A stretch of 64,000 nt of DNA, taken from positions 62,001 through 126,000 of the forward strand of contig JASANH010001412.1 of assembly GCA_030248295.1 (NCBI GenBank), given 5' to 3'. A program made the translations under genes and the position numbers. The notes under the pieces were generated by a model, which was not told the origin of the DNA, did not search any database, and was given only the letters and a program-made list of their open reading frames with translations. Every line of letters begins with the position of its first letter. Positions within the stretch are counted from its first letter, which is position 1. The DNA comes from Mesodorylaimus sp. YZB2_4 (taxonomy: Eukaryota > Nematoda > Enoplea > Dorylaimida > Dorylaimidae). Below are positions 3,001 to 48,300 of this stretch, piece after piece.

Positions 3001-4714
3001 TTCAATTATTTCACTGTGACTTGCATTTGTGCCCGCGCCCACGATCTCATTAGATCCTTATTAGCTGGACACTGGAGCATCCCGACTCCCTGCCACATCT
3101 CCTGTCGGGCAGCCCTCGATGTTCTCCTCGGATAGGGTTTCAATTATTCTTTACACGAAGACTGCTAACTGCTCCTGCCCACACACCTATCCTCTCGTCG
3201 AGTCGCTCAGTCGTTGTCTTATCACTGTCCGCATAACGGTGCGATACGAGACCGGATTTGCGTGCTCTCGTGCTCATGAAAGGTCTCGTTGACGCTGGGG
3301 GGGGGGGCATAATATCGTGTCCGTTATGTAGCCTGTCACATCCACTCAGTCCCAACTCGGGTGGTCGGTTGTGCGTGACGAATTGTTGGAAGGCTCACCT
3401 CGCCTGGCTACCAACTAATCGGTAAGCCCTCGTTTCGTATGCGTCTTGAGCGGCATATGTCAAAGGAGATCGATCCAATTAGGAGTGCAACACAGATGCG
3501 CGCATGCGACAACTTACTGCTAGGCTGTCATTGGATCCTAGCTGCGACTCGAAATGCCATGCTCGCCCTACTCATCAAGTAAGCGGGTCATAGCCTTAGC
3601 GAGGAGCAGTCTCTCCTGTCATCCTCAGCCAACTAGTGCGTCCGCCACGAGATTGAATAATGTCATAAAAGAGACTCTGACGGGTCAGGCCAAGGCGGTC
3701 AGGCTAATTTCACCCGCGAGCCTTTGGTTCAGTGCAGAGTTGGCGAGGAGGAAGAAAAAAAACCGTTCTTTTAAGTAGCCTTGGAAAAAAATGTGCGAAC
3801 CTTTTCCTAGCTGCTTGCCATTTTATCAATAATCTCATTCAAAATTGCAGATGGTGAGATTTTATTCTGGGAGTCGTGGGGTTTTTCTTTTTGATGGATT
3901 TTGTCAGTGGTGAGGAATAGCATTGTAAGCATTTGATTTTGAGACAGTTTATGCAAATTCGCGGGAAATTTAAAATTTTGTTACCTATTATACGACGCGT
4001 AGGAACTTTTTTTTGAAAAAAAGACGAGCTCGCCTTCCTTCTTCCGTTTGTTATTTTCTACGGCTCGAAGTTCTACGAATGCGGATGCGAACAGGTGCGC
4101 CATACTGTCGAAAATGGGTTATGCAGAAACACTTCCCTTTCTTGTCTTTTTTATTTATCTAACCTACTTTTCATCGCGCGCCACTAAACAGAAAAAGAAA
4201 TGGAATGGAAAAAGTATCCGTGGCTTGGGCAAGCGGGGTGACAAGAGCCGATTTCAAAACCGATTTATCAACTGCCGTGTTTTGCTGGTTCGCACCAAAC
4301 GGGTTGATTTGGGCATTTTGGCTGCAGTTGCGCGGCACATTACTCGTTCTTCTGCATTCCAACCCATCACGACGACCCGTTCTCGACAACTTTTTCTAAA
4401 TTAACGTTATATATGCCATGCCAGTCAGCCCTGAATGCGTATAGGTTCGTCTTTGTCAGTCATCTCAGGCTCGTTTTTAATTATTCTCGCTCAGGTCGCA
4501 ATCTGACGATACATTTGTTGGGATTCTGTTTTATGCCACAGCAGTTTGGACAGAAAATTCCACATTTTCAAACTGATCATCATAGTCCACTTTGCGAGTG
4601 CGAGTCTGCGTGACTTGTGAACATTTTTTCGCATCGTGTCCGCAAATCAGCCGAAGTCGAAGCCATTCGAGTCTTTCAACCATTAGTTTGACAGTAGAAC
4701 AGGCGTGTCCAGAA
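1..4714. other. Intergenic sequence without a supported gene
   Basis: No reading frame here shows a recognisable domain, and the open frames present (about 60 to 120 codons) look like chance openings in both strands. The stretch contains a G15 run at 1694-1708 and a G11 run at 3297-3307. A distal promoter or 5' untranslated exon of the ETS gene that starts near 5.8 kb could lie here, but nothing visible fixes one. Confidence 0.5.
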
Positions 4715-4867
4715 TGGAAGCTGGGCACGTGCGCGAGAGTAGAAGCGAACTGGACCGATTGAGAATTACGTATGCGCAAGAACGAATCAACCGAGAGAGA
4801 GTTGAAGGGTGCTTGGAGGCGTGCAAGACCCGACTGATGGCAGCAAGCGCGCTACGTATTTTGGCAT
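4715..4867 (+). other. Possible orphan coiled-coil exon
   Basis: An open stretch of about 50 codons starting at an ATG at 4715 encodes a highly charged, helix-prone peptide with leucines and basic and acidic residues in a coiled-coil-like pattern (for example RSELDRLRITYAQERINRE), ending at a TAG at 4865-4867. A possible acceptor (GTTTGACAG) lies just upstream, near 4692. It resembles in general style the N-terminal coiled coil of cytoskeletal regulators, but no family can be named. It could equally be a chance open frame. No neighbouring exon was found to join it to. Confidence 0.2.
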
Positions 4868-5810
4868 AGTTACTTCTAGTCCACTGCGTTGTCGGTGCTG
4901 GCGAGCTGGAACTGCCACCCGAGTTTACAGCAGGTAGCGCTAAACTGCAAGGCTTTTTCTTCCTATCATTACCGAGAAGCTTTCGGTGCAATTTATTTAT
5001 TTTTCTTCGGGAAACTTTAGAATATTGCGAGAATGATTGCCTGTAATTTTCAAACGTTCTGTCGAGAATAATAAGAGTGGAATAGTGAATGGATTTTTAA
5101 AAGGCTTTGATAAAGTACTGGACAAATAGCTGGCATTCGATTACAGTGTGGTAAATTTTTTGAGAAGAGAAACCAACAAGGTTTTTGTTACTAAAAGTCA
5201 GAATATTTGGAGTTGCAGATTGTAGAATTTATTCGTCGCACTCATTCTTTTTCTTCCGACTGCTTGTTGCGGTGCTTGAGATAAAGAAACTATGAGTATG
5301 AATTGCCCTTAGCTCTTGCTCGATTCGAGTATCAGCTTTGGGATTTTATCTTTCGGGCATTAATCTCATGCATTTGTGGGATCACTATGGTTTAAACATT
5401 ATGCTCCACCATTCGTTTTGACTTTAAACCGATTGTTGGCGCAAATTTTCCTTGTTGTTCAAATTCAAACTTGTCATGTAAATTATTTTATTGCAGTTTT
5501 TATGAAGTGCATGTTGTACGGGTTGCTAGGATTGGTGTCGAGAGTTGGAGGGATCGAAAGCGCGAGGTGTCTGGTCTGTGGGTGTGTCCGGTTGTTGATT
5601 AGCTAGAACATACTCGTCTCGTCTGTACTCGTACAGCTCTGATGGGTACCTCGTGAACTTTTTACGAGCATGATTCCGTTCTGTAAAGTCAGTTAAATCC
5701 GTTTTAAGCCAGTATAATGAGTATTGAAGCTTAAAAAATTAAAAATTGATTAGAAATATTGAATATCAAAAGACTTTTAATTCTAGGTGAACGCTGATGA
5801 TGACTCTTAC

Positions 5811-8800
5811 ATGGATCCGCGGGTTTGCCTGAGCCCGAACGTGCCAGTAACGAGTGAAGAGAGTGCGGCTTCAATGACACCAGCCACTGTGTCCTTGAAT
5901 CCTGCATTGTCGCAAGCGCCTTTGGTCAACGTGTGTGGTATTGGTGGTGTGGCGAGCAGCACTGGTCTTGTCCACAGCCATTTCAGTGTTAGCAGTGGCA
6001 ACGGCGGAAACGGGAGCGGAAGCGGGACGAGCAACATGGGCTCCGCTGGCGGCTATATGGATCTCAGTCCGGTCATATTGGACCGTCTAGGGCCGAGGAT
6101 CTTACGCGCTCATCCCTCAACGGCTCAACATAAACAAATACCACACAGTAAGTGCAGCAATTCTGGTGTACTAGCACTGGCTAACCAATTTTGACCCCCG
6201 CCGGTGAAAGTTGAGGACCCTATGCTGCAGTTAAAGGTGTTTTTTATCGGTATCTCCCGATCCAATCAAAGTTTCACGAAATCCCGTCGTGGTTCCCGCC
6301 ATTTCCCGCCTGCTGGGGTCAAAAATCATCAAAATCCGTCAAATGGTGCTCAATTGGCGCCAAAAAACCCTCCCTGAAGTATATAGACTTTGCTTGAAAC
6401 GTTAGTAGGTACCGTATTTTTGGAGGGCAGGGATCTTCGAGCACAGCCATCGTACAGTTGCTGCTTGATGTCACTAACAGGGTGATCAGCGAGGGTACAA
6501 AAAACCATTGACACAGAATCCTGCTTTTTTTGAACGTATTGATAAGGATCGGTCAGATACCCACTGATTTTTGCGCAGCGCTGCTTGGACGCATCAAGCA
6601 TGAAGAGCCTATATTGGTGCAAAATAATTGATCAGATGCTTTTATGTTGCTGAAAATCCAATCGCTCACTTTTTGCTGAACTTAAAAAGATACTGTACTT
6701 ATCTTTTTCTAAAATGCAATAATGCTGTCTGGTTCGCTAGAACTTTTCGCTGATTAAAAGTCGGATAATGCCGACTTCATTTGCCAAAAGATACATATTT
6801 TAGAGATTTATAATTTTAAATGAAATGTGTTGTAGACGATCGAATCGATATTGAAGCATTTCGATTAAAAGATCCGCAAGAATGGAATATGGACGATGTA
6901 ATCGGATGGATGATATCGGTAGCAAAGAAATACCAAATTCCGGTGGAGGAAATGAATATGCATCGTTTTGCCAATTGTACGGGCACATTTTTGACTTTAA
7001 TGAATCAACAAAATTTCCTTGACCGCGATCACACGTACGGTTATTTATTGCATGCTGAATTCCGCAAGTTGGTTGGAGGTAAGTTGCTGGTCCGAAAAGT
7101 ACGTACTGCCTGTGCTGTCGGATACGAAAGCTCAGCTGGGTTACTTAATTGAAGAAAAGTCTGGAGCAGCAGCTATAAAATTATACTCATTAATAATGCA
7201 GGACGCAGGGAACTATTCAGCGCCTGAGGTTTGTTAGATTCATTTGAATCTGCAACAAAAAATTTTTTCGCTTGTCCTGAGCGAAGCCTCGCAGGAGGTC
7301 CACACAAGGAGGCGCCAGTGTGGGCAGGCAGGTCCCTCTGAACTAAAAGCCAAACCACGTGCAGGGTCTTGCAGTGCGTACGTAAGACGAGCGCCCCCGC
7401 GGAGTATCTTGACAAAGGATACATGGTGGGGCAATGGGGTTCACTTGTTCGGCACCCCATGATATCTAAATCGTGGGTGCACCTTAACCATGCATCACCA
7501 CTCCCCTCGGCGGGCACTAACGAACCATCGTCCGTGCATATTCAATTTGTTTCCAGTCCTAGGATTCGAAATAATAATTGACCCCTATATTACTGGGTAC
7601 ATATTTGAAGAAAATATGCAATATGGCTTTGTGGGATGCACGGTACCTAAAAGAGGAGTGAACCGGATTCAAGAAGCCATTATTGCTTCACCAGAAATCT
7701 ATGAAAACAAACGTGATTTCTCTTATGTATAAATTAGAAGATGTCAAGACCAGGTCCATGCTTTGAGCAAACTTACGATAAGTAGGGCGTGGTGTCAATC
7801 AGTGCTGGTGATGGTGAGCATCCTTTGTAGGAAATTTGTAGCTGCTAGAAAGCGGGTGATTTTCTGCTGAAAATATAGATTGCAAAGTTCAAACGAATAT
7901 ACACACTCAGTTTTGTCAAACAGAAAAACCATTTCGTATATTCTTATAAATCGTTTCAGATGAATCAAATTTCTTGGATGAATGGATGCGAGCGTATCGC
8001 GAAGATGCGATGAACGCGACGATCTTGAATACGGCCGCTGCCTCATTACCATCCACTTCGCGTATGGCGATGTCGAATGCGATAAGTTCTCACTCGGCGG
8101 CCGCATCTCTTCTTTTACCTTCCGTCGCTTCTACCTCATCGCCTTTTTTGACCGCTGGCGTGGTTAATGCTCGAATCGCCGCCGCAGCAGCAGCAGCGGC
8201 AGCGGCGGCTGCTGCTGCCCAAGCTGCTGTTGCTTCGTCGGCTGGAGCGCAGTACGACCAGCAGCCATCAACGTCGAGACGTCACGATTGCGCCCCGTCC
8301 ACATCCGCCTCCACGGATTTGTGCCGCAGTGGAGACAGTTCACAATTGAGACGTGAATCCGTGATCAAATCGACGGGTATGTCAGTGCAAAGTGTTGGGA
8401 TCATCAGTGCAGTCGTTGGGCACCCTATCAAGTCCAGATATGTTGCTCTAGATTTCTAGCTTGGCGCATTATGGCAATCTGGGGGAAGGGAGATACGCTC
8501 TCGCAAAAACGCCTAAGCTGTCCCAGACTTCTACCCCTCAACGGAGTGAGCAAAATAAGCGAATTTTGTGCGAGGTTTCAAGCACCTGCAAGGTTTCTTC
8601 TTGCTTGAAAGATGCGTAAGAAACTTGCGACAGCCCGGCGAGATTGTGCAACTTCTAAGCCTCCTAGATCTGACAATTGAAATGCCTCGGTGTACTAAAA
8701 ATATAGTCTTAGCAGTCGCATCGATTTCGACTGATTTACATATTGTTTACAGCACACCATTTTTTAGGTTTATCGCCATTGCCTCGTCCGGGCGCCAATT

Positions 8801-11800
8801 CGCTCGCGTTCGGCGCTTCTGCTGCTGTTGCTCAGGCTACGACGTCCGGGATGGCCAGGACCATAAAAGATATGAAGAGGGAACTGCTAGGTGGAATCGG
8901 AGAAGGACCGTCCTATAGGACAGATGGTAAGTATGTCTGGGTTTACTGCTCGTTTGGGATCACAATCAGGATGCTCTCCAGATTTGTGATTACAACCTTC
9001 TGCCAGTGAGCTTTGGCGAGTGGGACAAAATGATCTACACTCTCCACTGGCTGAGAGACGTCAACCCCTCGGGTTGATGTTTCAGCCAGAGGTATAGTCG
9101 TCGTAATTCAATTATTCTGGCTTCAGTCGGAGTTTTTGTCCTGCCGACTTCGGTCAGCCACATTCTCTCCTACGCCTGCCTGGCTTGGTTGCAGTGACCT
9201 TGCAATTTCGGACCATGACTGACAATGAGCTTGATTTCTCGCACCAGATGCCTCTATAAATTCTGGATCCAACGTTTCAAGTCTGGCTTGGAAACCTCCA
9301 AATTTCTTCTGATATGCCGAGCCAACAGTTCTTTACTTTGACATAATCAGACCTCCGTTCCCGCTGTCAACCAAGCTATGTTGGTGTGGCCAGATGTGTT
9401 ATGCATTGCTTACTACCACTCACCAGTCAGAATGAGAGTGATCCTGAACGAGCACAGGCAGCGTTGGGCATGATCCTGGTTTGCATCGTAATGCGCATGA
9501 GCCGCAGACTGCATTTGTGCAGATGATGTCTCAAAGAACGAGGCTGGGTATCCCCTGTGTTTTGAGTCTTATCTTTGTCAGTCAAGGAATGCCATAAATC
9601 CTCGCTCGTTATTTCGGAGATGTAGGATTTCAAAACGGACCCACCTCTGGGATATAAGTGAAGGGGATACCAGAAGTACCCATTAGTAGCCCTACACGCC
9701 AGTAGGTAGGCCCTAATTAGGGGTACTTTTGTTAACGATGACCATGAAAATAATTAAAGCAGGCGAAATAAAGAGAAACAGAGTGGGTGCACAAAACTGA
9801 TATATTTTGTATTGGGGGGGGGGGGGGGGGGGCTTAGGTATTCATGCATCACGTCAAGTTTTTACCCCCACGAATATAAGCGAGAAGGGATGTAGGATTG
9901 TAATTCCTCGTCTCCCTTTTAGGTAGCGAATTCTCCACGGGCTCAGTGAAGACATTGCCAGGCAAGATTATGAAGAAACCGAAGATTACAGACGCGTCGG
10001 GAAATGTACTGACGGCTAACGGCAAACCTAGGAAACGTTCTCAGCGTAAGTGCAACGAAATTTGTGCCCAATTATTTGAAATGATGATTTTCGATTTTAG
10101 ACACAAAAGGGAATAAACTGTGGGAATTTATACGGGACGCTTTACGAGATTCTTCTACGTGTCCGACTGTTGTCAGGTATGCTAGCAAGGCTCCTTTTGA
10201 TTTTTGTTGGGCTGGTGGCGTTGGAAAATACACCGCGGTTCCCCCCCCCCCCCCCCCCGGGCATCGACTTAGTGGAGAAACGACCAAGGGAACGTCTCAC
10301 ACTCAGATTGAGTGTAGGCTGAAACAAGTAATCGGTTAATCGATAGTCGCGTAATAATCGATGATCCCATTATCGATCCTCTTACCATTTCTGGGTGCAA
10401 AAATAGAGAAACTACGCCTTGGCACAAAAACTTTAGGAACTTAAAAAATTGTTTGTAGAATGTCGAGACCTCGTTCAGGAGCTCTATGATCTGTTTGACC
10501 TTTTGAGGTTCCTTTCGTATGAAATATTGGAAAAAGAAAATGCAGGATAAAATTCTTGGTCATATTTTCTTGCAAAAGTTCTGGCTTGGCATGCATCTTA
10601 CAATACATACGGATATGTTTTCTATCCCCGATATGTGTAGCACGTAATACGTAAAGAATAGATTCAGGGTTGTAACAGGAGTGGGTTTGTATTGCTGGAG
10701 GGAGTGACCACCGCGCCCAAACCAAAGGCAGCCTTCTGACCCGTGACCTGCTTCGTGGCTGAAACATCACCCAGACGGGTGGTGCAGAGAATTGATTACC
10801 AGACGATCCTCTACAGTATAGCGTGGGTGGTAAGGCACGTACTGTGTTTATAGCCATCATGGACACTCTGAAGCCATCCCCAGATAGTGGCCTCTCAGTT
10901 TGTGTCACTTGCAAGCCGCAACTTAAGTCATTTCTGTGCTGTCACTTTTCGAGCCCTAAATAGCGAAATAGATGTGTCTGTAACTTGAATGGGTTGGCGA
11001 AGTTGACTTTCAGCTCATAGCAGCGTCAATTCACGTGGTTCTGCTTCGTTTCAGGTGGGAAGACGAGCACGAAGGCGTATTTCGTATAGTCGAATCAGAA
11101 AAACTGGCTCGGTTGTGGGGTGAGAAAAAGAATAATCAAAAAATGACGTACGAGAAGCTGAGTCGTGCCATGAGGTGAGGTCGTGCACTGTTTTAATCAT
11201 TGTCATTTCGGCTCTTTTTCTTGTGCAGAGTGCGGCTAGCGGGGTGCACAACATTATCAACAGGCGGGTGCAGAGCACAAATAATAGATTTGAGGTCAAT
11301 AAAGGGCTGCAATTGCTATGGCAGGAATTACTTACGTCAATAGACGCATGGGTGGTGGGACAGGGATGAGGTAATGAAAGCACGCTTCTTTCCAGGACAT
11401 ACTATGAAAAGCAAATTCTCGTACCCGTACCCAAAACGGGTTTGTATCCTAAAAAGCTAGTCTACAAATTTGGTCCAAATGCGAACGGGTGGCAAAGAGG
11501 CGCGGCGCCAGTAAAACAGTGCTCGACATTAGTGGGAGTGGGAGGAGGTGCCTCGACGTCAGCATTCGTGTCGAGTGGCGTTGGTGCCGGTGCAAGAGTA
11601 AAAAAATGCACGCCTCACCATCTCTCTTCATCTTCTACTTCTTCAATAACAACCAACCAAATGGCAGCTTCTACTCCCTCTTCTCATCACTCCACACCAT
11701 TCGGCTCGCCTTCGCACCGCTATCCTCCCCCGTCGGGTTTGTCGGGCTTGGGCGTTCGAAAAAGGGACACTGACGATGGCTCGAGCGCACGACTGACGAG

Positions 11801-11975
11801 CAGGGACGGTAGCAGGGCTGCTGTGACTGTCTTGGAGAATATCAAACTGGAGGTCAATGACGACGAGGAATTGGAGGAGATCGATCGAGGCGGTGGACTG
11901 GTCATGGCTGAATCGGACGATGAAGAAGGCATGGACGAAATCGAACCTGGCATGAGCGACGATGATCAGGAATGA
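5811..11975 (+). CDS. ESE-type ETS transcription factor, PNT plus ETS domains (isoform a)
   Basis: Eight exons join with consistent phases: 5787-6147 (ATG at 5811), 6836-7078, 7960-8376, 8768-8926, 9923-10045, 10101-10176, 11055-11174 and 11396-11975, giving about 684 residues. Residues ~113-194 form a Pointed (SAM_PNT) domain (core [14 protein letters not shown]). A run of 14 alanines sits near residue 270. The ETS winged helix spans ~430-522: [11 protein letters not shown], then the recognition helix [11 protein letters not shown] with its two DNA-contacting arginines, then [12 protein letters not shown]. The last motif and the PNT-to-ETS order resemble vertebrate ELF3, ELF5 and EHF, so it should bind GGAA sites in the nucleus. 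The tail after the ETS domain is long and acidic ([16 protein letters not shown]). The acceptor TTCTAG ends 24 bases before the ATG, so a 5' untranslated exon or a spliced leader may join there. The exact start is the least certain part. Confidence 0.88.
9057..9190. repeat. Related interspersed repeat in ETS gene intron
   Basis: It carries GTCAACCCCTCGGGTTGATG and then TGCCGACTTCGGTCAGCC, ending CGCCTGCCTGGCTTGG. The order is the reverse complement of the modules at 29340-29710. A shorter piece (GTCCCGCTGACTTCGGTCGC) also appears near 19947. Confidence 0.5.
9814..9832. repeat. G19 homopolymer tract
   Basis: Nineteen consecutive G in an intron of the ETS gene. It is the longest of seven G or C runs of at least 11 in the window; the others are at 1694, 3297, 10243, 23297, 29732 and 50301. 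Confidence 0.95.
10241..10258. repeat. C18 homopolymer tract
   Basis: Eighteen consecutive C within the intron between the two exons that encode the start and middle of the ETS domain, about 65 bases after the donor at 10177. A run this close to a donor could affect splicing or be prone to length change. Confidence 0.95.
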
Positions 11976-12652
11976 TGGGTGGATGGTGCGCGACTCAGTT
12001 CATTACTAACAGTATTTCACTTTCTAAATGGCGGGAAATTTAAATGTATTCAAAATCAAAACTTCAGCAGCTGTCTTCTTTGCTACTTATAACCATCTAG
12101 TATGCCTGCTGTGGCCATTCTTCTTTCCGAATTCTTGGACGAGCTCTGACTGGTATGTTTCTTTTCTTTGCCATGTTTGGGTTATTATTAACAAACACGC
12201 CCATCTAATATATTTTTTCGTGGTTGAAAGTGATCAAGGCTATAAAAAGGGAGCACTTTTAGAGGGATTACCTCCGCTTCCTTTCTTCTGTTTTTTCAAT
12301 AATCCTCTTGAAATCTTTGCTAAAACACGAATCCTGGTGTCTTTTAGGCCGATCAATGTGAATGAGGGTTTTCCCCCCAATTATCTCATGCCGTTTGAAC
12401 CCGAAGTACTGTTTCTCATGATCAGCTTACGATTAGTGCGCTGTATAAATTTTTATAATAGCAAGACAGACGAGCTTTCGTTTGTTCCTCAACGTGGCGG
12501 AGTCGTGACCTGTCTCGACAGTTAGACCATGAGATGAATGCTTAAACTAAAATTATGAATCGACGCGACTTTGATTAGGCTTCTAATTTTTTTTGTGGAG
12601 ACTCGCTCATTTTGACAAAACAATTGCATAAAACAGCATGGTGTCCTTTCAG

Positions 12653-12983
12653 ATACTACTACAACACAAAAATCCTTCTGCCAGTCAGTGGTCGTCGTTT
12701 GGTTTACAAATTTGGTCCCAATGCGGTCAATTGGAGATTCTCCTCCTCCACGGTCCCCGACACCAAATCTGCAAGACCTCGTAGTGCTGACCCATCACCA
12801 TCAGCCTCCTTAGTGGCAGAAGATACTGATTTTGGTGAAGTACGCGATGGGTCATCAAGTGCTGTGCAAATGGTGGTAGAAGAGAGGGGGGATTTGTTAA
12901 CATCCACTGCCACCTCCACTGTGGGCCATGGTGGGCAGAGTGGGTTTGGTCATGAAGAAACGTATGAGGAGTTCAACGAATGA
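12653..12983 (+). CDS. Alternative last exon of the ETS gene (isoform b)
   Basis: After the acceptor CCTTTCAG, this exon continues from the exon ending at 11174 in the same phase as the 11396 exon. It encodes a second version of the end of the ETS domain: YYYNTKILLPVSGRRLVYKF followed by GPNAVNW. The resulting protein is about 601 residues with a different, shorter Ser/Thr-rich and acidic tail. Its loop length matches vertebrate ESE proteins better than isoform a, which has a few extra residues (KTGLYPKK). An AATAAA signal lies at 13176-13181. The two exons cannot both be used in one message because the first ends in a stop codon. The splice pattern is inferred from sequence and no transcript was seen. 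Confidence 0.82.
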
Positions 12984-14816
12984 ATGGCCAGCCGGCTGGG
13001 CGTAAGGAGATGATGCTGCAATGACAAACCATTGATGATAGTGCTCACAATCAGTTTGACAAATTTGCATAACGTGCGTGTTCTGAGCATGGTAAGCATG
13101 CATTGCTGGTGATAATCTGATTGCCTCGTTGATCACACGATGATAAGGGAATGCACTTTTTTCTTTGCACTCACCAATAAATGAATCTTGTAAATAAGGA
13201 GCATTGTGACTGTAGTGCTGCTCCCTCAGTTTTATGTATACTGTTAGTAATGGTTACTTTTAAGCAAGGTATACAGTAGATATCATATTCCTAGGGCACC
13301 AGGGTATTTCTGTTTTATTTTTAACCCTGTATTTATGGCGAGTATATGGCGTAAAAGCACCCACCTGTGCGCGTGTGTGTAATGTATAGACTTTTTGTGA
13401 CTATGTCAGGAATTTATTTGAGCGGTTGTTCATAACTTATACGAGTATTTGTTACGTGCTTCTGTTCTACTGTTGGATTGATCTTCAACGAAAGGTCATA
13501 TACAGTGTATTGTACTTACTATCGCTTATTATGCACTCGCACGTAACAGAAACAAGGCACACACTCACCAAGAGAAATGCTGACAGGCCCTTCCTCCCAA
13601 TTGGTTTGATCATTTGTTCTGGCCTATGAGTCTTTTACACCGTTCGTTGTACTTTGACCCGAGTGATATTGCACGTTGTTGTTGACGTCGTCCCTTGATA
13701 ACTGGTAGCCGGACTGGTAACCGGCCTCGGCTTATCGAATCCAGGTGCACTACACACACACACTGTGTACAAGGCACTACACACTGTATAATGCCCTACT
13801 CCTATGAGTGTCTAGTTGCTTCCAGGGATCATACTGAATGTATTTCATGACAGAGGGCCCAAGTACATTCACCAGGCACAGGTGTTATCATGGCACAAGG
13901 TAAGCATAATCTTGAACCACGCTGCTGGACAATACATCCGGTATGTCAGGAGTCGGGACCGTCATTTTGAGGCGCTCGAATTGAAGGCTTTCTGAATTCT
14001 GAGTTCTGATTACCCCTTTTATGCAGCGTGCGAATGCCTGCCTGTTCGAGAGATGTGCCGTAATTTTATATTCGCACTGCAAATATATGTGGAACAGGTA
14101 CCTGGATTTTTGCGGATCTGGGATAATAAACGGTCGACATTGACTACAGATAAGACAAAATGGTTTTTGACTCTCAAATATGAATGGTCCATAAGCCAGG
14201 CTTCACACATGCAGCCAGCCTCGGCTAAACTGAACCAGGACCAGCCCGCGTGCCTTCTATTATTTAACACTGACTGACAGCAAAAAAGAAACAGGAAAGT
14301 TATTATTAAAGTACATAGCTTCTGGCGAAAAGACATTCATAAACTAGTAATTATCGTCTTCACTGCAGTCGAAGCTGTCAGATTTCTACAACTTGTCTGG
14401 TCTATCCTGACAACGGCAAGAAACCTGTGGTTTATTTTGATCCTGGTCCAGTAAAAATAGCCACTTGGTCCAGTTCGGCCGAACCTGGACAGAGTATAGC
14501 ATCACGCACTACACACCAGATGTGACAGAGGGGTCACAGGCATGACGTGTGCAATTAAGAAATTTGAATTTTTGGTTTGGCGGGAAACACGAACTGGAAT
14601 CTTAATTTAATAGGCAGCTTATATCGAGGTGTCTTCTCAGATTTAAGAGTAGCACCGGTGCCTGTACGGAAGTATCGAATTTCTCACACATATTTCAATG
14701 TTATAGAAGGTTCGGAAAATATTTATGCAAATCATCAAAATCAGGCCATATAAAATCCCGGGCCATAATCCATAAAAAAGCCTTGTGTAATAAATTTCCA
14801 ACACCCTTATCACCTT
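12984..14816. other. Intergenic region between ETS and carnosine methyltransferase genes
   Basis: This holds the 3' end of the ETS transcript and then the 3' flank of the convergent methyltransferase gene. Short CA/GT-rich patches occur near 13750-13790. The open frames on both strands carry no recognisable motif. I see no other gene here. Confidence 0.5.
13176..13181 (+). terminator. Poly(A) signal of the ETS gene
   Basis: A canonical AATAAA lies about 195 bases after the stop codon of the distal alternative last exon. No AATAAA was noticed between the proximal last exon (stop at 11975) and the distal one, so isoform a may use a variant signal. Confidence 0.55.
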
Positions 14817-16385
14817 CTAAGGCACCTTTTTTCTAAACACGCTATAAGCACAATTATATTGATACTGAAGCATACTCGATGCATTTTGTGTATACGCAAT
14901 ATTCATGTGCTTTTCATCGATCAATATATCGAAACCTAGTTTTTTGGCTAACTCCAAAATTTCTTCGTATGGTAATTCTAAAGAAATCTCATTCTCTATA
15001 TCGCAGAAATGATAAAGTAATGGGCCAAAATTAATCCAATATCCACCAGGTTTCAATATACCGTAGATCACTTGCAAATAATCGATAACATTATGAGCAG
15101 TATCGATGAAGAACACGGTGCACACACAATCCCAGGTTTCCTTGTTGCTAACTTTTGAAGGGTGATGTTGATTTGGGTGATCAGAACGCTTCGAATCTTG
15201 GTCAACTGTATCGTGATTACTACGATCACAAGGATCTTGACACTTCACGTTTCGATCAATACCGCAATATCTCTTCGATCGATCAGCTTGATCATCATTA
15301 TCCAATCGATCAAACGATCCGTAAACATCCAAGAAATCGCCGGCAGTCATCGAAAAATTAGCGCCTTGTGGCATATCGGATGGATTAACATCAGGGAATT
15401 GAATCGATCGAATTTGATCATCGTAAGTCCAATTATTGGTCCATTGATGAACGTACGGAAAAATAGTCCATTCGTTTTCGTATTTACATCGATTCAGAAT
15501 GAAATTTGATACGAACAACATAAATAGGCTGAATTCGTTGCCTTGGCATTCGAATCCGTGACGTGCTACATCGAAGGCTAATCGACCGAGGCCAGCGCCA
15601 GGGATGAGGACTCTTATTTTCGATCGTTCTACCACGTTTGGATATAATTCTAATAGCTGGTCTAAAATCGGTTTATATGATTGATCGCGTTCCGCTGCGC
15701 CATCTCTCGACCAGTCGCGAACAATTTGACGAAGCGTGCTATGTAACTTATCCATATTAAAATCGGTAGCTACGGGTTGATGCATCGATGAGTCATCATT
15801 CGTATCAGCCGTGTTTTGTTGACGATTTTCAAATATCTGACCAGTGGCCGTGACTACGGAGCGTATGAATGCGTAATTGGCGATAACGCATCGATGAGCG
15901 TGGCGAATGTGATCACGCAGACGAGGAACCATGGCCAAATGGGACGATGGAATAGCACGGATCGATTTGACTTTGGATGCTAATCTCAGCTCGGCGTGGC
16001 GACGATAATAAAGAAAGGCATCAACGATTTTATTGAAATGGATTGTTTCTTCATCCGATTCCATTGGTTCGTCGTCGTAATTTGACTGATCGTGGTGAAT
16101 GTGATGATTGTTCAAATTATGATGATCATGCCGATGACCGTAATCAGACTTGCCATGGTTACAAGCCGATCGATGAATTGGATAGGAACCATGGTCAGCG
16201 TGATCCGAGAAACGCTGGCGATCTTCATTGTGATCGTGAGACGATGCCGAACCGAATTTTGGTTTCGTTGAATTCCCCTTCGAGTAGTGACTCTGATCGT
16301 GAGAATTTCTGGACGCACCTTCTTCGGAATTAGCCGAAGAGTTCGCGTGGTTTCCAGAATTCACTCCCTCGTTACTAAGTGACAT
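14817..16385 (-). CDS. Carnosine N-methyltransferase-like protein (N2227 family)
   Basis: A single uninterrupted frame of 522 codons starts at the ATG at 16385-16383. The C-terminal ~400 residues match the CARNMT1/N2227 family: the S-adenosylmethionine loop VLIPGAGLGRLAFDVA near residues 258-273, NEFSLFMLFVSNFILN soon after, WDCVCTVFFIDTAHNVIDYL near 420-438, and ILKPGGYWINFGPLLYHF near 442-460. Known members transfer a methyl group from S-adenosylmethionine to the histidine ring of carnosine to make anserine. The first ~110 residues are a low-complexity His/Asn/Asp/Ser-rich leader. About 50 more polar residues are inserted before the WDCVC motif, making the protein longer than the ~400 residues of the human enzyme. 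It has no introns although every neighbour does, so a retrocopy origin is possible, yet the frame is intact. The coding sequence is dense in GATC. Confidence 0.9.
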   Translation of the reverse strand: MSLSNEGVNSGNHANSSANSEEGASRNSHDQSHYSKGNSTKPKFGSASSHDHNEDRQRFSDHADHGSYPIHRSACNHGKSDYGHRHDHHNLNNHHIHHDQSNYDDEPMESDEETIHFNKIVDAFLYYRRHAELRLASKVKSIRAIPSSHLAMVPRLRDHIRHAHRCVIANYAFIRSVVTATGQIFENRQQNTADTNDDSSMHQPVATDFNMDKLHSTLRQIVRDWSRDGAAERDQSYKPILDQLLELYPNVVERSKIRVLIPGAGLGRLAFDVARHGFECQGNEFSLFMLFVSNFILNRCKYENEWTIFPYVHQWTNNWTYDDQIRSIQFPDVNPSDMPQGANFSMTAGDFLDVYGSFDRLDNDDQADRSKRYCGIDRNVKCQDPCDRSNHDTVDQDSKRSDHPNQHHPSKVSNKETWDCVCTVFFIDTAHNVIDYLQVIYGILKPGGYWINFGPLLYHFCDIENEISLELPYEEILELAKKLGFDILIDEKHMNIAYTQNASSMLQYQYNCAYSVFRKKVP

Positions 16386-17912
16386 TTCCTGCCAGATTAG
16401 AACCTTCGCAGAGGGAATTTCTCAGCTCTCATTTGTGCACTCCTCTCATTAAGGACCCTAATATGGCGCCACTAGCAGACTTTAAAAAAGCACCGGTAGG
16501 TATGGCGGGAAGCTTGAATTTGTAAAAATGTTGGCGTGGAAATTACTAGCTGTAATTTTAAGTAACAATACTGATTTTTGTCAGTGATTATGCTAAGGTT
16601 AGTTCGAACCATAGGTCATGAGAATATGAAGTTGTGATTTTTGTCATTCACAGGGCTCGTAATCTGGTGAACATTAGTTGTGCCAATGCTTTTTCATCTG
16701 CCTCCTCAGACACACCATCATTGCAATTTTTGTGCCTGCTTCCGTCCATATGGTACCATCTGTCTGAAGTGGCTCTACTCATTACAACGCCCTCGCTCCA
16801 ACTGTCAACTGTTTGTTCGTCTGTTTACCCGAACCATCATTCTTGCATGGAGTGCCTGCCTATAAAGGCCCATGCCCATGAGCTAGTAGTTTTCAAAAGC
16901 GTTTTCAAAAACCTGTCCCAAAGCAAACAAAGAAAGAAATAGATCAAGGACAAAATGCATTTTGGATGAGTCGACATCATTTGCGCAGGCTGCGCACGGG
17001 TTCCTTCCTCCTTGCTCGCTGGGCCTACCAGAGTCAAGTCCCGGGAGGCAGGTACGTGAATGAGTTGCGCTGATAACCTAGCCTTTGAAAGCTTATTGAT
17101 TCAGAGGTAGGAGAGGAAAGCTATAGCTATGACTGGAGGCCATATTTGCCTGATATTATCACTTTATTTCCTTTGTGCACTGGCCATATGCCGCTGGCAA
17201 ACTAATTTTAGCGTCGAATATAAATTAGCCTCCTCACTCCATCCCTTACGTACATGGCAACAGATTTTCAAAAATCGTTTTGCAACTGATTAATGGGCCA
17301 AATTAAGTTTATATTTTCTAGATGGAAGTTGGGGATTAATTCCGTCACTTGAGCCGATCAGGGGCCACTTGATCAAATATCTTAGCTAGGAAATCTATGC
17401 AGACTCGCAGAACCATCTTCCCAATAAATAATGAGGGGAAACAGGTCAGATACTAACGTACGTAGCTATTCAGAATGCAGGTGGAGTGAGTGAGAAAAAC
17501 ATAGTACTGTGGCTGGTTAAGGGGTCGTGGCCTAGCGGGTTAAAGCATCTGCCTGTCACGCTGGGTGCGCACCTAGAGAGGAGGGTTCGACTCCCGCCTC
17601 GGTACAAAATGATTGTCAAATATGTGTTCCTTCGCCCTCGAGTGCGTCTTATGGTGCTTGGCTATGGATAAAGTATGACATGACCTGCTGGTGAAAAGCT
17701 AATCACTGGGAATTGGATGGTAATAAGCTTGGAGAAATTAGAAGAACGAGGATTGTCGCCAAAAGGCAGAGTTTACAGTAAATTATTCAGGCGCCGAATT
17801 TTATGATTTTACGCGCCTGGAATCGCAATTTTACAAATTTCAAGCCAATTTTAATATGTATTGTAGTTTTGTATTTCAGGCCGTCTGCCAGTTATCCAAC
17901 TCACGACCAACA
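16386..17912. other. Intergenic region upstream of two divergent genes
   Basis: It contains the 5' flanks of the methyltransferase gene (leftward) and the Rab gene (rightward), and a tRNA-derived repeat at 17515-17684. The acceptor TATTTCAG ending at 17879 lies 33 bases before the Rab ATG and could mark a 5' untranslated exon or a spliced-leader site. No further gene was recognised. Confidence 0.5.
17515..17684 (+). repeat. tRNA-headed SINE, copy 1
   Basis: The head carries both internal RNA polymerase III promoter boxes: A box TGGCCTAGCGG at 17528-17538 and B box GGTTCGACTCC at 17584-17594. An anticodon-arm-like stretch (CTGCCTGTCACGC), reminiscent of tRNA-Asp, lies between them. Stem pairing is imperfect, so it is not a good functional tRNA. 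A non-tRNA body follows (CCCTCGAGTGCG, then TGGTGCTTGGCTATGGA, then TATGACATGAC). Head and body recur in the opposite orientation at 20240-20405, which makes this a short interspersed element rather than a lone tRNA gene. Confidence 0.75.
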
Positions 17913-20900
17913 ATGAATCGAAAATCAATCAAGCTTTTGCTTATTGGCGATTCAGGAGTCGGCAAGACGGCAATTTTATATCGCTTTGTCGATGATGTTT
18001 TTAATCCAACTTTTATCACAACTATTGGTAACACTGTAGTTCCGTTTAGTCGATCTGGGCAAACTGGGTATATTTTCGCAAATTTTTCAGGGATCGATTT
18101 TAAAGTTAGGACAGTGACAGTGAATGGAAAGGATGTGAAATTGCAGATCTGGTAAGTGGATTTGCAATATAGGCACAGTGGAGGGTGGCAAGTACTGCAG
18201 TAGAATGGAGTGGGAACAGTGATAGGAAAGGTAATAAAATGATCTCTATCTTAGTAACATCAAATGCTACTGTACGATGCCCGTGCTAGAAGATATCGGA
18301 TGATTGCAAGAAAACTTGATGATTTTGAAATCAAATATTTCGATAACTACTGGACAAAACATTTGATTGCAAAATCAAGTTTTTTATAATTACCCGATAG
18401 CGCTCGCTGTTCACCACACCTACAGTACTTTATGTCCCAAATGAGGCCTACGCACTGTACTTCCGGCAGGGTGTTTTGGGTGCATTGGGCACCGTTTGAT
18501 GGAATTCGATGGTTTTTGACCATAGTATGAGAGCCCTACATTGGGATTTCGCGAAATTTTAATCGGTTCGGGGGATATGGATAAAAAACACCTTGCGAAG
18601 CGTGGACCCAGTACTGTTGAATATGGGCCCACAACTTTTAGTTATCAACGAGCGCTGGTAAAAGTTGTGGACTCATATGCAAATGTAATAAGTGGAAATG
18701 CAATAACTTGTTCAGCAAAGTTTATTCGGGTGGTTGGAGACTGCAGTATCAGATTGCCAAATTTAAAAAAAACTGGCGTATAGAGTACAAGGATTTTCAA
18801 TGACCAATGGATTGCGACTGAGCAAGTGGTTATTGTGGACAGGGAAGTGTGGAAAGAGAGCATAGCATTTGCCAACTATGGTCACACGATAAATGGTCAG
18901 GCTCGCCGCCATTGAATTAGGCATTGCTGACGGAAATGTATATTAAAGTTTTCATGCATAATGATGTACACTAGGCTTCAGCTGTACTTTGATGCAGCAT
19001 AAAGTTCTTTGAGCTTCATGAAGCTGCATCACAGGTGAAGTGGTTTTCTCTTATTATTCATCATAATTTTCACTTTTCTCCCAGTGTGTGCACGAATATG
19101 ATTGGGTAGGAGAAAGGCAAGGTATGGTGCAGTATTGTAATCAAAAATTGAGAGTCAAATAGAGTCACCAATGTTTAAATTATTCATAACATGTTGCATC
19201 TTTGAAGAATTCGCGTACTGTAGATGCGTTTTACAGTAGTGCAGACGTGCCACGCGAATACAGGGAGATCTCCGGCTGTGGCTCCATAACAACCTGTATC
19301 TTTCTGTTTACTACCAGCAATGACGATCAAACGCAATAATTTTCATAATCTGTTTTTCTTATGCTCACCGACACAAAGTCGATCAAACGCAAGAATTTTT
19401 ACAATCTGCCTACATCACAAAGTTTTTAGTTAAATTTTTTGAATTTTCATTACAAACTTGAATACTGCTTACTTCTTTCGCAATATGAAACGTTCTGTAA
19501 CAACGACGGCAGAAAATTATACCCTTTTGCAAACGATTGCAAGGAGGACAGCTATAGAGAAACCTATTTCAGGGACACGGCAGGGCAAGAACGGTTCAAG
19601 CAGACATTGATGCCAGCTTATTATCGCAATGCTGACGGCGTACTGCTCGTCTACGACGTGACCAATGCCGAGTCACTGAAAAACATTTCAACCTGGATGA
19701 GATGCATCCAAGAGGTATCAGCCACCTAACATTGTGCACTGCACCTGTGAGCCGCGTGGTACCAGTGCACAACCTACATAATATGATCTGGGCCACGTCA
19801 CGAGGCAACTAGTACAGCGATGCTGTAATTCAATGCAACCCACTGAGATGGTGGGGGATGGTCTTACCTAGCAGGAAAACATCAACCCTTTTCAGCCACA
19901 ATTAGTATAGCTACAAAACTTGCCTTGTTGCAGTTAGTGTTTTTGTCCCGCTGACTTCGGTCGCATTCTGCCCTACAGTATTCTGTCCGGCCAACGGGTG
20001 CAGCAACAAATCAAGATTGAACTTGGTGATACGGGGAAGGGATTTGGTGATTGGTGATCCCAATTCCTCAAGCTTGCGGCCAAATACCATGAATCTACAC
20101 TTGAATCTTGGACCCCTTTGAAATCTCGCAGGCCAATCATTAAGCCCCTGGGGGTAAAACTGTCATCTGACATATGGGTACCTAAGCCATAAAATCCATT
20201 TTTAGCCCACTGATTTTCTATCCATAAATTGTACCTTTGTCATGTCATACGTTGTCCATAGCCAAGCACCATGCAGCGCACTCGAGGGCTCGAGCACATA
20301 TTAGACACTTTTTTTTCTACCCAGGCGGGGGGTCGAACCCTCCCTTGTAAGTAAGCGCGTACCCAGCGTGAGAGGCAAATGCCTTGACCGCTAGTGTAAC
20401 ATGTGCCTGGAGCCGGCAGTGTGCCCATCGATTGGCACAAGTGGAACGTAGTCAACCTCTCGGGTTGATGTTTCACCAGTCTTAGACTACTAGAGGTCGG
20501 AGATTATTGCCCTGAGTTTTATGCGGAGTGCGTTAGCTCCCCGCGGCACCATCTACGCACCCCAAGGAACGCCGACGGGAGTCAGGCGTCTAGACTCAGG
20601 AGGCGACACCAGGCAGGACGTAGGTGCTGGGCGCGTGTTACATTTGGCCGCGTCCCTAGGTATCATTCATCCCCAGTTTTCATATCGTTCTATTATCACA
20701 CCGAAATGCCTATTATCAGGACCTAATACAACCACGGCTACATTTACACTAGATGGGTTTATTTGTGCTGGAACATACACGCCGTACCTGTCCGGCCCTT
20801 CTAATCTCCAGGTCGGACCCCTTTGGAATCTTATAGCACTGGGGCAACAAGTCATATTCTGTATAGTATCAGCCATGATATAACCGTTTTTTTCCAGAAC

Positions 20901-31637: not shown

Positions 31638-33994
31638 ATGACCAAATACTTGATGTTCGAGTGTTTGACAATTTTTGTGCTTCTGTTCATAGTTTCGGGT
31701 AAGTGACAAATCGATAACTTATCGATTGATTTCGAAAGCAGTAGACGGTTTTTACCGATTTCGTGTGTCATGTCAATTTTTGACAGCCGTTCTCAAATGA
31801 CGCCTGAAGGCATCATTGCCAAAAATTTGTCACGGCTTGCCACATGCGTTTAGGGCCGCCGCAGTATAGCCACCATGCACAGATCAAAAGGTTTAAAAAA
31901 TCCAACAGCTACATTTAAAAATACGGGTAATTAATTTTCAGTGCAATCCCTGAACTGTCCAGCTGGTCGATGTCCAGTAGGTTTAAAATGCTTACTCGGC
32001 CGTTGCGTAGTGGACAGTGCTCGGTGTCCACCATGGCGTCGTTTCGGGCCAGGGCCACCCAGCGAAAAGAATTGCACCCGTCCGACCGACCCAAACCGTC
32101 GCCCAGCCACAGAATTGGAGAAATGGTTCACGAAAGAAATGTTCTTGGACCTATTTCCCAAGGCCAATTTGGGATGGGGCCCGAATGCGTGCTGGCCGTA
32201 CAGTTATGAATCGTTCGTGATAGCTGCACGTTATTTCCCCAAATTTGGTACCGAAGCACCAGAATCGGATGAAGGAAGCAAGAAATTCACAGTCGATGAT
32301 CACCGTCGACGTGATTTGGCTGCCTTTTTCTCGCATTCTATCCAAGAAACAGGAGAAAATGATGCCAGCATCTACTCGGCGATGTCACACGACCGAGAAC
32401 TGGCCGATGCTTGCTTCTATCGCGGTGGTTTCTTTAATTGGTTTGAAGGCGGTCCAGTGTCTGCTTTCCTACCCAAACAAACGCCCGGCTACGATCCTAA
32501 GGACGGCGATAAGTGTAATGCGGCTGGCCGATATTGCGTCGCTGGTAGCATCTGGAAATGTAGCCAGGAGAAAGCGGGCGAAAAGATGTTCAAGGGCTGC
32601 TATTTCGGTCGTGGCTCAATCCAGTTGTCCTACAATTTCAACTATGGTCAATTCCAAGATTGGCTGCTGACCCAAAATATCAAAGTGGATTTGTTGAAGG
32701 AACCCAACCTGTTGATGACCAAAATGGATCCGCCATTGGCTGTTCTGGCTTCGCTCTGGTTCTACATGACGCCACAGCCACCGAAACCGGCCATGCATGA
32801 TATCGTTCTGGGTAAGTGTTACACGAAGGAGCTATGCATAGTGAAAGCGGATGTGACAGTTGGGGCGGTGGGCACATCACAAATACCCATGAGTCGCAAA
32901 TCAATGACATTAGATCCAAGTCCCAAGTATCCATTATCCATTAGCATAGGACTGGCGTTAATGATCCATAGATTTCTCCAGGCGGCTTTGAGGCTGTTAG
33001 GGAGTGGACTGTTGATTTATTGTGCGACAAAGTGTTTTCATGTTGCATCTTGGTCCAGTATAATTGAACTCATCCTTTGGTCTCCCAAACAATTGTATGA
33101 CTGACTTTAAGCAGAAATTGACGTTGAAAATCTCAGGGCTTTTTACTTTTGGTTGGATACCGTTCTGACAGTCAACTTTCTTTCGTCTCTTCATATAATG
33201 CTTCTGATCAGAAACACATCCAATCCATGAAGTTTCTTTTAGCCTTTAATGCTTTTATAATTTGATCTGCAGCACTATTGATGCGTCGATCACATGTGTG
33301 TGAGTCCGCATTTTTGTGCTGCCTTTACAAGCCTTTATAAGTTGATATATAGTACGTATAGCGGTACCACAATTTGGGTGACGACGGACCTTTTTCTAGC
33401 TTATTCGCTTATCCTTTTTAGTCAATCATTAACTTCTTGATTACTTGACTTCATTAATTCTTGAGTTACCAACCCAAGAAAATTCCCCCTCATTCCTTTA
33501 TCACTATAGGTAAATGGAAAGCATCCCCGGAAGACGTGGAACAAGGTTACGAAGGACCCGCCTTTGGTCCTACCAGTCTCGTGATCAACAACGAATGCGG
33601 GGGCGAGGATCCAGAACTGGTAGGTGGACCAGGCGAAAGTCGTCGTATCAAAGCGTTCAAGTGGTTCAGTAAATATTTTGGTTTTAAACTTGAAGACGAA
33701 GCTTTGCTCTCATGCAAAAACATGAAAGTACACTTTGGCGATATGAGCCAACCCATCAGCTATCAACCCGATTGGTCGAGCACTTGGAAGACTGAGCCGT
33801 GCGATTGCGCTCCGGCCACTTACGGCGGCTCGATTCCATACTTTGCACCAGGCTATTACGATCAATCGTTCGTTGATTTGAATGAGCAAAATCGTAAGCG
33901 ATGCATAAAGAGCATTTACGAAAACCCTGCTTTATACATGATGAACGATAAGACCAGTTTGTGCTTGACTGTGCCACCACCTGACGATCTGTGA
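31638..33994 (+). CDS. Secreted chitinase-like protein, glycoside hydrolase family 19
   Basis: Three exons (31638-31698, 31942-32811, 33510-33994) join in phase to 471 residues. Exon 1 encodes a signal peptide (YLMFECLTIFVLLFIVS). A short cysteine-rich segment follows (CPAGRCPVGLKC and nearby). Residues ~70 onward match GH19: AAFFSHSIQETGEND holds the glutamate expected to be the catalytic acid, then CYFGRGSIQLSYNFNYG, DPPLAVLASLWFYMT, and after the second intron GPTSLVINNECGGED. GH19 enzymes hydrolyse beta-1,4 N-acetylglucosamine chains, and nematodes are among the animals that carry them. Possible roles are remodelling of eggshell or cuticle chitin, or attack on fungi. The C-terminal ~100 residues (CDCAPATYGGSIPYFAPGY) are an extension I do not recognise. 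AATAAA lies at 34117-34122. Confidence 0.9.
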
Positions 33995-45341: not shown

Positions 45342-48300
45342 ATGCAGGGAAGGCTGATTCTGTTCGCCGCTATAATATATGGCTATAATGGTCATATCAG
45401 TCCTGTTAATGAATCATTACTGAACGCTTCCACGAACGGCAACGTCAACAGATCTGACTTCGAGTTGCCTGTATATGGTGGCCTCGTGGGTAAGACTTTT
45501 TGGGTCAGCAAACGTGGATTGTGTCTACAGTATATGGGGACATGGTTAGGGGCACAGTAAGACAAGATTTTTGGAAAGTTCACATGCTTATACAACATCA
45601 TAGGGGAACATCAACTTCACTGTCTTTATAACCCTACGGAAAAAAGGCTCATATACGTTCCATGTGCCTAAAAATACTTGTTTTTAAAAGCTAGCTAAAA
45701 ATATTCATAAACCGGTATATGCGTGCGCTGAGTGATAACTAACATAGACATAGAGGCTTACCTCGCGCATACATGCTCAGCACATATCGGTATATATACA
45801 TAAACATATATATATAGGGATATATATGCATATATATATAGCAAAATAAATATACATATACATATTTAAATGTATATATACCTGTTTTCACTCATATATA
45901 CCAGCTATAAACAACGAATTCTTGTTTGTTGGTGTAACGCTGTAACTGTATTACAGTAAATATCCATATATGCGGTGTAGTTCTATAATATAATATACCC
46001 ATTTCAGTATTATTCAAATCTCACTCAGTTTATGTCCAAGGAGCTGGTCTATTAGGACCTGGGATATTGTGGCTAATAATGGTTTCCCAATCCTATTTGT
46101 CCTGTCTATAATAATACTTCGTTGTCAGTCTCACACTCCAAACCAGTATCAATTTATTTCAGTTCAGTCACCGTCGAATGAAAGTAGTAACGATTTGGGA
46201 AGAATGAAAAAGAACAGTACACACCGTGGCATTAATGCGACCGGACTGGTGCTTCGAATCGTCACCATGAAAGTACGCTTCGGTTTCATAGCTTGATAAA
46301 TACATGCTTATGTGCTGGTCGTTTTAGCATGCTGTCTTATTGTACACTTCTTAACTGCATATAGGAGCCACCATTCGTGGAATATTTCAACATAAGCAAC
46401 GGGACATTGGTGACTAGCAACAAGACGGGGCCTGGCGTGGTCATGGAGATTATGAGAGAAATACAGAACAAATTGAAAGCCCAGTAAGCAACGAGCTGGA
46501 GTAGACTGTTAACTAAAACAGTGGCTTATCGTTAGCATTGATTCTGACCTGTTGAAATCGTACGAGTGTAATCAGACATTGTATCTTTCCAATAAGATAT
46601 TTTCGTGCTCAAGCTCGGCTCTGAACATAAGCTGTAGGATTTCTGCGCGATTCAAAATGCGGAGGTGTCTTATTTCAGATTCGAATATCGCGAATCAGAC
46701 GATGGTCAGTGGGGTGAAAAGAATCTAGAGACGGGCGCGTGGTCGGGTATGATTGGCCAATTACACAGAAGGGTATGCTTGGCTTGCTTATGGTTGGTTA
46801 GACTAATAAGACGCAGAACGGCGTAATTGCTCAAAGATAGGCAGGGTGCGTAGTTTGTAAGCAAATGGAGTATGTCATTCTTATCTTTCATAGGGACTAC
46901 ATATGTATCACAGCATAATTACCTTTAAGGTTACCCCCGTGCTACTCTATAATTTTAAAACCAGCCTGTACACAAAGCTCAGGGCACAGAGTTCAGTTTT
47001 AAACGGTTTGGAGATCAGTTCTGGCGCCATTATGGGTGGTGGTGAGGACGGCTGTGGTGGTGGTAATGTCCAGCACGGTGGACGAGTCGACGGCTTGCAG
47101 GGCGGTGTAGTACTTCTGGAGGTCGTCCAGCCGTCCCTTGGACACCTCGTACTTGTGGCGGGTCAGTTTGCGATAGAACGTGTAGGTGAATATGAGGAAG
47201 ATGATGAAGACGGGAATAAGCATGGCGGTCGTCACGTAACTGGCCATCGCGTTGCGAATTATGGCGAATTTGATCCAGAAGACGACGGCGATTTCCAACA
47301 GGAACAGCATGAGCCCGAGCACGGTGCTGAACACCCAGGCCAGTTCGATGTACACTCTCATGCCTGAAATGGGGCGAGGAGTAGGGGAAGCAGAGACACT
47401 GATTGTGAGTCCACTTACGTTCGTGAGGCGAATCATGAGCGGACGTCAACGTGCCACCCTCACCAACCGCCTCCATGTGGGGAAGAATGCAGGTGGACAT
47501 CATCAGGGCCAGCAAGTGCACGCTGACCAGCAGGGTCGTGCATACGCCGAAAACGATCAGTGCACCCGAACCAATGTCCAATGGCGCTCCAGAAGGCGAT
47601 GTCAAATCGAGCTCCACCAGGGCAACCTAAAATCGAAGGTCGGGCATGGACAAGTATATGGCCAGGAAGGGGACGACACGACACACACACGGGTTCGACA
47701 CCACCTGGGAGTAAAAGCTTTTGATTTGCTACATTCCCGACCTCGGACACGAACTTTGGCGAGCGGACATAACGGGGACTCCAATGCCATCGAGGCCATG
47801 TGTTGAGCCTTACCATGGCGAATCCGGCCAATAAAGCTGACGTTCGGCTGGATGCCTTCAATTTGGCTCGACTCAAGTAAAGTTGGCGCAAAGCCACGCT
47901 GCTTAAGGGCGCTTCCATTTCCTTGATATCGATCAATGATCTGATTTATTCACAATTCCATTTCGTTTTATCAATTAGACAAACAAAATTCACTAAAATA
48001 AACTTTGCCCCTTTTTGGCAAGCTAGGCATTACAGTATGTCAAGTTACGCACGTCCGGGGCAGGTACGTGGCTGGCCTGTTTGATATAAGCAGCGGGCAA
48101 ATGCCCAGTAGCGCCGCTTACTATACGTTTCAGTTGCACCAATAGACCTTTTCAGCGTGCGCCAAAAGCTTCTAATTTGAAATTCCCGCTTCGGCTGCTT
48201 ATAACAACAAAACAAGGATCCAGCAGATCTGTGCGCGATCTTATGCAAATTTCGGCTGACAGGAGAAAGCTAAATATTTTTAACAAAAGTTATTGACGAT

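Follow-up and report, generated by a model that had tools for sequence, protein, structure and literature searches.

Transcription factors of the ETS class share a GGA core, and it has long been asked how related members choose their targets. In human EHF, exons 8 and 9 of 9 encode the ETS domain (PMC3501485; here and below, citations refer to passages of the papers named), and the described EHF and ELF5 variants differ in their first exons, in a 23-amino-acid exon or in the Pointed domain while the ETS domain is kept, with the exception of one doubtful ELF5 transcript that would be without it (PMC3501485, PMC4704400). Potentially productive variants of ETV4 keep the ETS domain as well (PMC10066307). 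Outside this class, exons 18 and 18b of FOXP1 are alternatives inside the forkhead domain reported to alter DNA preference, a swap shown by RNA and binding arrays and followed by a continuing frame (PMC11701043); in Drosophila fruitless, a 3' splicing choice joins a common N-terminal part to different C-terminal zinc fingers (PMC7027472). Here we analyze a 64,000-nucleotide stretch of the nematode Mesodorylaimus sp. YZB2_4 (contig C263:62001-126000, JASANH010001412.1; hereafter the window), which carries an ESE-class ETS gene. We consider it likely that the last exon of this gene was duplicated in tandem long ago and that exon E8 is spliced to either a proximal (P) or a distal (D) copy. Whole-genome searches covered 145.1 Mb in 1067 contigs.

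The arrangement centers on three exons, given in window coordinates:

11055–11174, + strand: exon E8, middle of the ETS domain into the recognition helix (Pfam Ets match at C263:73053-73178)
11396–11975, + strand: proximal terminal exon P (phase, codon usage, ETS match, conservation in a paralogue on contig C78)
12653–12983, + strand: distal terminal exon D (phase, codon usage, ETS match, acceptor)

E8 ends inside the recognition helix with ATG AG|gtgagg at 11174 (donor GAG|GTGAGG), after the first two bases of the codon for the second invariant arginine (Arg-394). P begins at 11396 after ctttccag and reads AG|G ACA TAC TAT, opening a 33-residue ETS segment, with its stop at 11973-11975; D begins at 12653 after cctttcag, 677 base pairs (bp) beyond the P stop, and reads AG|A TAC TAC TAC, opening a 28-residue ETS segment, with its stop at 12981-12983. 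These neighboring homologous exons share the entry phase AG|N. The split Arg-394 codon is restored as AGG by P or AGA by D, SRAMR is present with the two invariant helix arginines kept, and each join leaves one open frame from exon E2 to the stop, comprising 193 residues (P) or 110 residues (D) from the shared arginine. The first-pass annotation of this stretch had proposed two last exons that join in phase and each encode the ETS domain end anew, and both were confirmed at these positions with open joins; that they are "mutually exclusive" holds automatically for two terminal exons. With queries started in E8, the Pfam Ets profile (PF00178) scored 75.0 bits with P and 87.5 bits with D, both above the cut-off of 26.9 bits.

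Among solved structures, those closest to the ETS domain are EHF, ELF3 and ELF5, the top three for the P and D isoforms alike. By these matches and by an upstream Pointed domain, the gene is of the ESE type; the Pointed domain itself is not exclusive to that class. The same comparison bears out the ESE-like character suggested earlier, and also the suggestion that D is closer than P to vertebrate ESE proteins, the EHF match scoring 118.2 bits for D and 103.7 bits for P.

Residues were counted from the shared arginine, with numbering gap-free up to position 405 following the EHF, ELF3 and ELF5 alignments. P carries T395, Y396, Y397, E398, K399 and P404, then PKTGLYPKK before LVYKF; D carries Y395, Y396, Y397, N398, T399 and P404, then SGRR before LVYKF. 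The longer loop and acidic tail that had been noted for P are both present: its β3–β4 loop exceeds that of D by five residues, and the last 60 residues hold 22 acidic (D/E) and 4 basic (K/R) residues in P, compared with 13 and 2 in D and 25 and 1 in the C78 protein. At the position of ETV1 Tyr-395, D has Tyr, and P and the C78 paralogue have Thr. Some ETS factors differ at this position. In ETV1, Tyr-395 contacts the GGA adenine and bases downstream, and mutation of Tyr-396, Tyr-397 or Lys-404 costs more than 1000-fold or all detectable binding (PMC4447949). Both ends keep the essential Tyr-396 and Tyr-397 and differ at 395, at 399 and in wing length. Position 404 is Pro in P and D, Lys in ETV1 and Arg in EHF and ELF3; given this departure from EHF and ELF3, neither end forms a standard ESE surface.

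We propose that the pre-mRNA would be spliced from E8 to P or from E8 to D, yielding two proteins with a common Pointed domain and ETS front that differ in the helix end, β3, wing loop, β4 and C-terminal tail. The D isoform would present a near-canonical ESE surface; the P isoform, without Tyr-395, with a longer lysine-containing loop replacing the usual wing and with an acidic tail, would have a different DNA affinity or flanking preference, and a different action on transcription, with a role for the tail, is possible. The two ends strongly suggest that one gene could make two regulators reading DNA differently. The first-pass annotation had further suggested that the two factors may have different partners. 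For the more specific proposal, that terminal exon choice switches the ETS surface between two forms, one canonical and the other long-winged and lacking Tyr-395, and that a later duplicate was fixed for the second, we put the chances at about even.

That duplicate is the C78 paralogue (C78:297303-299843, E2 to stop), which consists of E2-E8 and a single P-type end with equal phases in every exon. Its sequence similarity to the window gene covers six of the seven exons E2-E8 and P, and a profile scan of 10 kb of the locus found the P-type end and the helix start in E8. A search for D in this locus (L033), extended to E 100, returned P itself, and no further match went below E 0.17; blastn between the window and C78 (E 1e-3) aligned five pieces, each of them over exons, and no conserved intron block. 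The P core is 89% identical in amino acids to its C78 counterpart over 36 codons, with differences at 20.2 of 23.3 synonymous sites and at 6.8 of 84.7 nonsynonymous sites (proportions pS 0.87 and pN 0.080; Fisher p 4e-13 on rounded counts); the corresponding values for the shared ETS part are pS 0.85 and pN 0.061. P is under strong purifying selection, and the few nonsynonymous against many synonymous differences indicate that selection has kept it for long. The six introns between E2 and E8 of the C78 gene measure 54-61 bp and the intron before its P 361 bp (L033 3921-4281); this longer intron could harbor an element since lost, or regulatory sequence.

P and D are far more distant from each other. 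Their amino-acid identity is 55% over 29 codons, with pS 0.73-0.84 and pN 0.37 (p 0.008 and 0.0005), in a comparison that has a five-codon gap set by hand, mixes change on both branches and finds synonymous sites near saturation. As search matches they are weak (P query to D, 50% identity, E 0.013; D query to P, 53% identity, E 0.026). Shared PV and FGPNA, absent from EHF, ELF3 and ELF5 in the alignments, make it most likely that one exon is a copy of the other. D keeps Tyr-395 and the GRR before LVYKF, lost in P, and P keeps GW, lost in D, a pattern that fits two lines held by selection, each having lost different old residues. As the window P is far closer to the C78 P than to D, the exon duplication probably preceded the gene duplication, and C78 would then have lost D; alternatively, D may have changed rapidly after the gene duplication.

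Frame, codon usage, ETS residues and a downstream AATAAA favor D as a real exon. Of the six frames, the true one gave the tail its highest codon score in P (0.276, next -0.014) as well as in D (0.155, other five -0.051 or less), and the score was negative in all six frames of the spacer between them. Among the 99 AGs in 11175-13000, scored after training on 15 acceptors, P ranked 4th and D 1st over eight upstream positions, and 3rd and 2nd over twelve. Open length alone is weak evidence, with 67 of 3676 window AGs preceding at least 109 open codons in phase and 8 preceding at least 192. A six-frame regular-expression scan of the whole window placed the ETS-end segment at P and D only, and a profile scan of 4001-18000 (E < 0.5), in which P and D were 2 of the 16 seeds, picked up the two exons and, in E8, the start of the helix; no third copy of the exon appeared in either. 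The spacer also holds a 165-amino-acid open frame (12028-12525, + strand), considered as a gene and rejected as chance on a negative codon score and no Pfam match.

Several observations weigh against two functional ends with distinct DNA reading. Acceptor rank varies with the number of positions scored, and over 20 upstream positions P ranks 1st and D only 12th of the 99. Neither AATAAA nor ATTAAA occurs between P and D (11976-12653), and the genome search, in which the best candidates were scored, found no second D exon. Outside the ETS core, conservation of the P tail between the window and C78 is poor (32% amino-acid identity over 130 aligned codons). On the binding side, the ETV1 Lys-404 mutant showed no binding and the Y395F mutant kept its dissociation constant (PMC4447949); with Pro-404 either form may thus bind weakly, and loss of Tyr-395 need not lower affinity.

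Some of these points would also suit a locus in which only P is used and D is an exon-duplication relic, lying in the P 3' untranslated region or in silent downstream DNA: the C78 paralogue manages with P alone, no canonical poly(A) signal separates P from D, there is no second copy of D in which constraint could show, and such relics exist in this genome, as exemplified by a decayed terminal-exon copy on contig C373. We nevertheless consider a relic unlikely. The frame and stop of D are intact, its codon usage is biased, its acceptor core ranks first of 99 over eight positions, and D fits the ETS consensus better than P, although synonymous sites between the two are near saturation; the C373 copy, by comparison, shows the decay expected of a relic. 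Moreover, D retains residues lost by P and has the higher Pfam, EHF and ELF3 scores, which is not expected of an equally old dead copy.

The C373 copy emerged from a survey of the other ETS genes. The genome holds 70 ETS places. In 27 loci among them, a front half (profile about 1-50) lies on the same strand as a rear half (about 49-81) and no more than 6 kb away. After exclusion of 3 whole-domain places, 2 of 29 front halves and 5 of 32 rear halves had no partner, and 6 other partial places, including E8 of the window, fell in neither class. At the threshold of this search, none of the 27 pairs had a second intact rear half within 6 kb. P and D are themselves absent from the 70-place list, so this control covers only genes split at the other intron position. 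By profile scan, an extra rear half was present in 1 of the 14 expanded ETS loci that were fetched (L051-L064), the one on C373. There, at L063 3626-3793, a decayed duplicate of a terminal ETS exon lies between intact front and rear halves, with Pro for the second helix arginine, likeness lost after β4 and an acceptor position at which no AG is seen by eye.

One of the 27 loci, C78:320772-321069, lies near a strong Pointed domain match (82.4 bits) and is presumably ETS1/pointed-like; the other 14 fetched loci resemble it. This gene and the ESE paralogue stand about 21 kb apart on C78 (297303-321069). Two of the fetched loci, L059 (C795) and L060 (C565), share 98.2% identity over 7.6 kb, with one inverted relative to the other, representing a recent duplicate or an uncollapsed haplotype, and the 27 loci may therefore count one locus twice. 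For comparison, ten ets genes are described in C. elegans (PMC2940738). In searches beyond this genome, the D-isoform query gave 2 pattern matches in viral contigs, neither confirmed, and the P exon gave 38 in prokaryote genomes, none confirmed, as expected for an animal gene.

The 3' side of the locus bears on how the two messages would end. The relevant element is:

13176–13181, + strand: AATAAA, candidate polyadenylation signal of D or of the P and D messages alike (next AATAAA at 14125)

Upstream of it, the P–D spacer offers only weaker variants (TATAAA at 12241 and 12444, AATATA at 12207). With no AATAAA or ATTAAA there, the two messages may share a 3' end and differ only in acceptor: P and D would be competing acceptors, and the P message would carry D untranslated and end after 13176. 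The position of the AATAAA after D and the weaker variants between 11976 and 12653 speak for this arrangement, which we regard as possible but tentative, as neither motif occurs in the C78 gene either, within about 1.15 kb after the stop of its sole last exon, so that their absence after P says little. It concerns regulation only, leaves the protein outcome equal and can be combined with the preferred explanation of an E8 joined to P or D.

Nematodes trans-splice, and D could in principle belong to another transcript unit, through trans-splicing or as the remnant of a tandem second ESE gene, and never be joined to E8. This is very improbable: neither scan found a further copy of the segment from E8 to 18000, and the phase of D fits E8 exactly. 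Alternative joining of E8 to P and D within one gene thus remains our preferred account.

Upstream of E8, exons were placed by comparison with the C78 paralogue:

5787–6147, + strand: exon E2, N-terminal region (similar C78 exon, 30% identity, E 3e-9; equal border and phase)
6836–7078, + strand: exon E3, Pointed (SAM_PNT) domain (PF02198 match and C78 similarity)
7960–8376, + strand: exon E4, low-complexity Ala/Ser linker (GT-AG borders, phase as in C78)
8768–8926, + strand: exon E5, linker (position, GT-AG borders and phase only)
9923–10045, + strand: exon E6, basic segment GKPRKRSQ directly before the ETS domain (conserved in the C78 paralogue)
10101–10176, + strand: exon E7, start of the ETS domain, a 21-residue segment (sequence similarity, phase)

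All exons from E2 to E8 have GT-AG borders and phases matching C78; E1 was not located within the window. The Pointed domain match at C263:68856-69071 (window 6856-7071) scores 32.5 bits against a cut-off of 24, and E3 is 75% identical in amino acids to C78 across 60 codons. The similarity of E4 to C78 is limited to the first 16 residues (E 0.007), and a search for sequence similarity between E5 and C78 found none. GKPRKRSQ in E6 may resemble an AT-hook.

Downstream, a carnosine N-methyltransferase-like frame (14817-16421, - strand; PF07942, 342 bits) faces the ETS gene and ends about 1.6 kb from the AATAAA of D. The window further contains a GH19 chitinase-like frame (31935-33104, + strand; 80.4 bits) and an Orai-like frame (47030-47626, - strand; 59.6 bits). 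Elsewhere in the genome, the cuticle collagen N-terminal family, a marker of nematodes, matches 133 places, and COX1-like sequence occurs at 15 places with one full-length copy (C73:251445-254668). This copy is open under the invertebrate mitochondrial code (TGA = Trp, AGR = Ser) and could represent mitochondrial sequence in the contig or a recent insertion into the nuclear genome.

One gene here offers the helix end and wing in two natural versions behind an identical upstream part, and a paralogue offers a single version; together they form a matched set that could test the effects of Tyr-395, wing loop and tail on affinity and flanking preference. The system also provides a clear setting in which to ask if a role formerly played by alternative splicing passes to a gene duplicate; if our account is true, the C78 duplicate turned a splice isoform into a separate gene. 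The first-pass annotation had considered such a choice of last exons unusual for ETS genes, which is compatible with the open-licence literature: no case of alternative exons rebuilding an ETS domain was found among the papers listed from it, and a word search of the main text of a survey of human tandem exon substitutions did not return the whole word ETS (PMC9741552). Alternative exons in DNA-binding domains are already known from FOXP1 and fruitless, and a pair that would rebuild an ETS domain appears new.

Like ELF3, EHF and ELF5 of the ESE class, the window gene combines a Pointed domain with a C-terminal ETS domain; unlike the human EHF and ELF5 variants, it would rewrite the ETS domain itself and add a C-terminal tail. 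In contrast to those of FOXP1, its exons are terminal, belong to an ETS gene and are predicted from DNA. The C-terminal variants of Drosophila lola, as they appear in reference titles and mentions, are a further likeness; fruitless and lola exchange whole zinc-finger modules, whereas the domain of the window gene is cut through the recognition helix. Among ETS genes, the ERG8 variant has an alternative C-terminal end of 70 unique residues, is without the DNA-binding domain and inhibits ERG3 (PMC4162137), whereas both ends of the window gene rebuild the domain.

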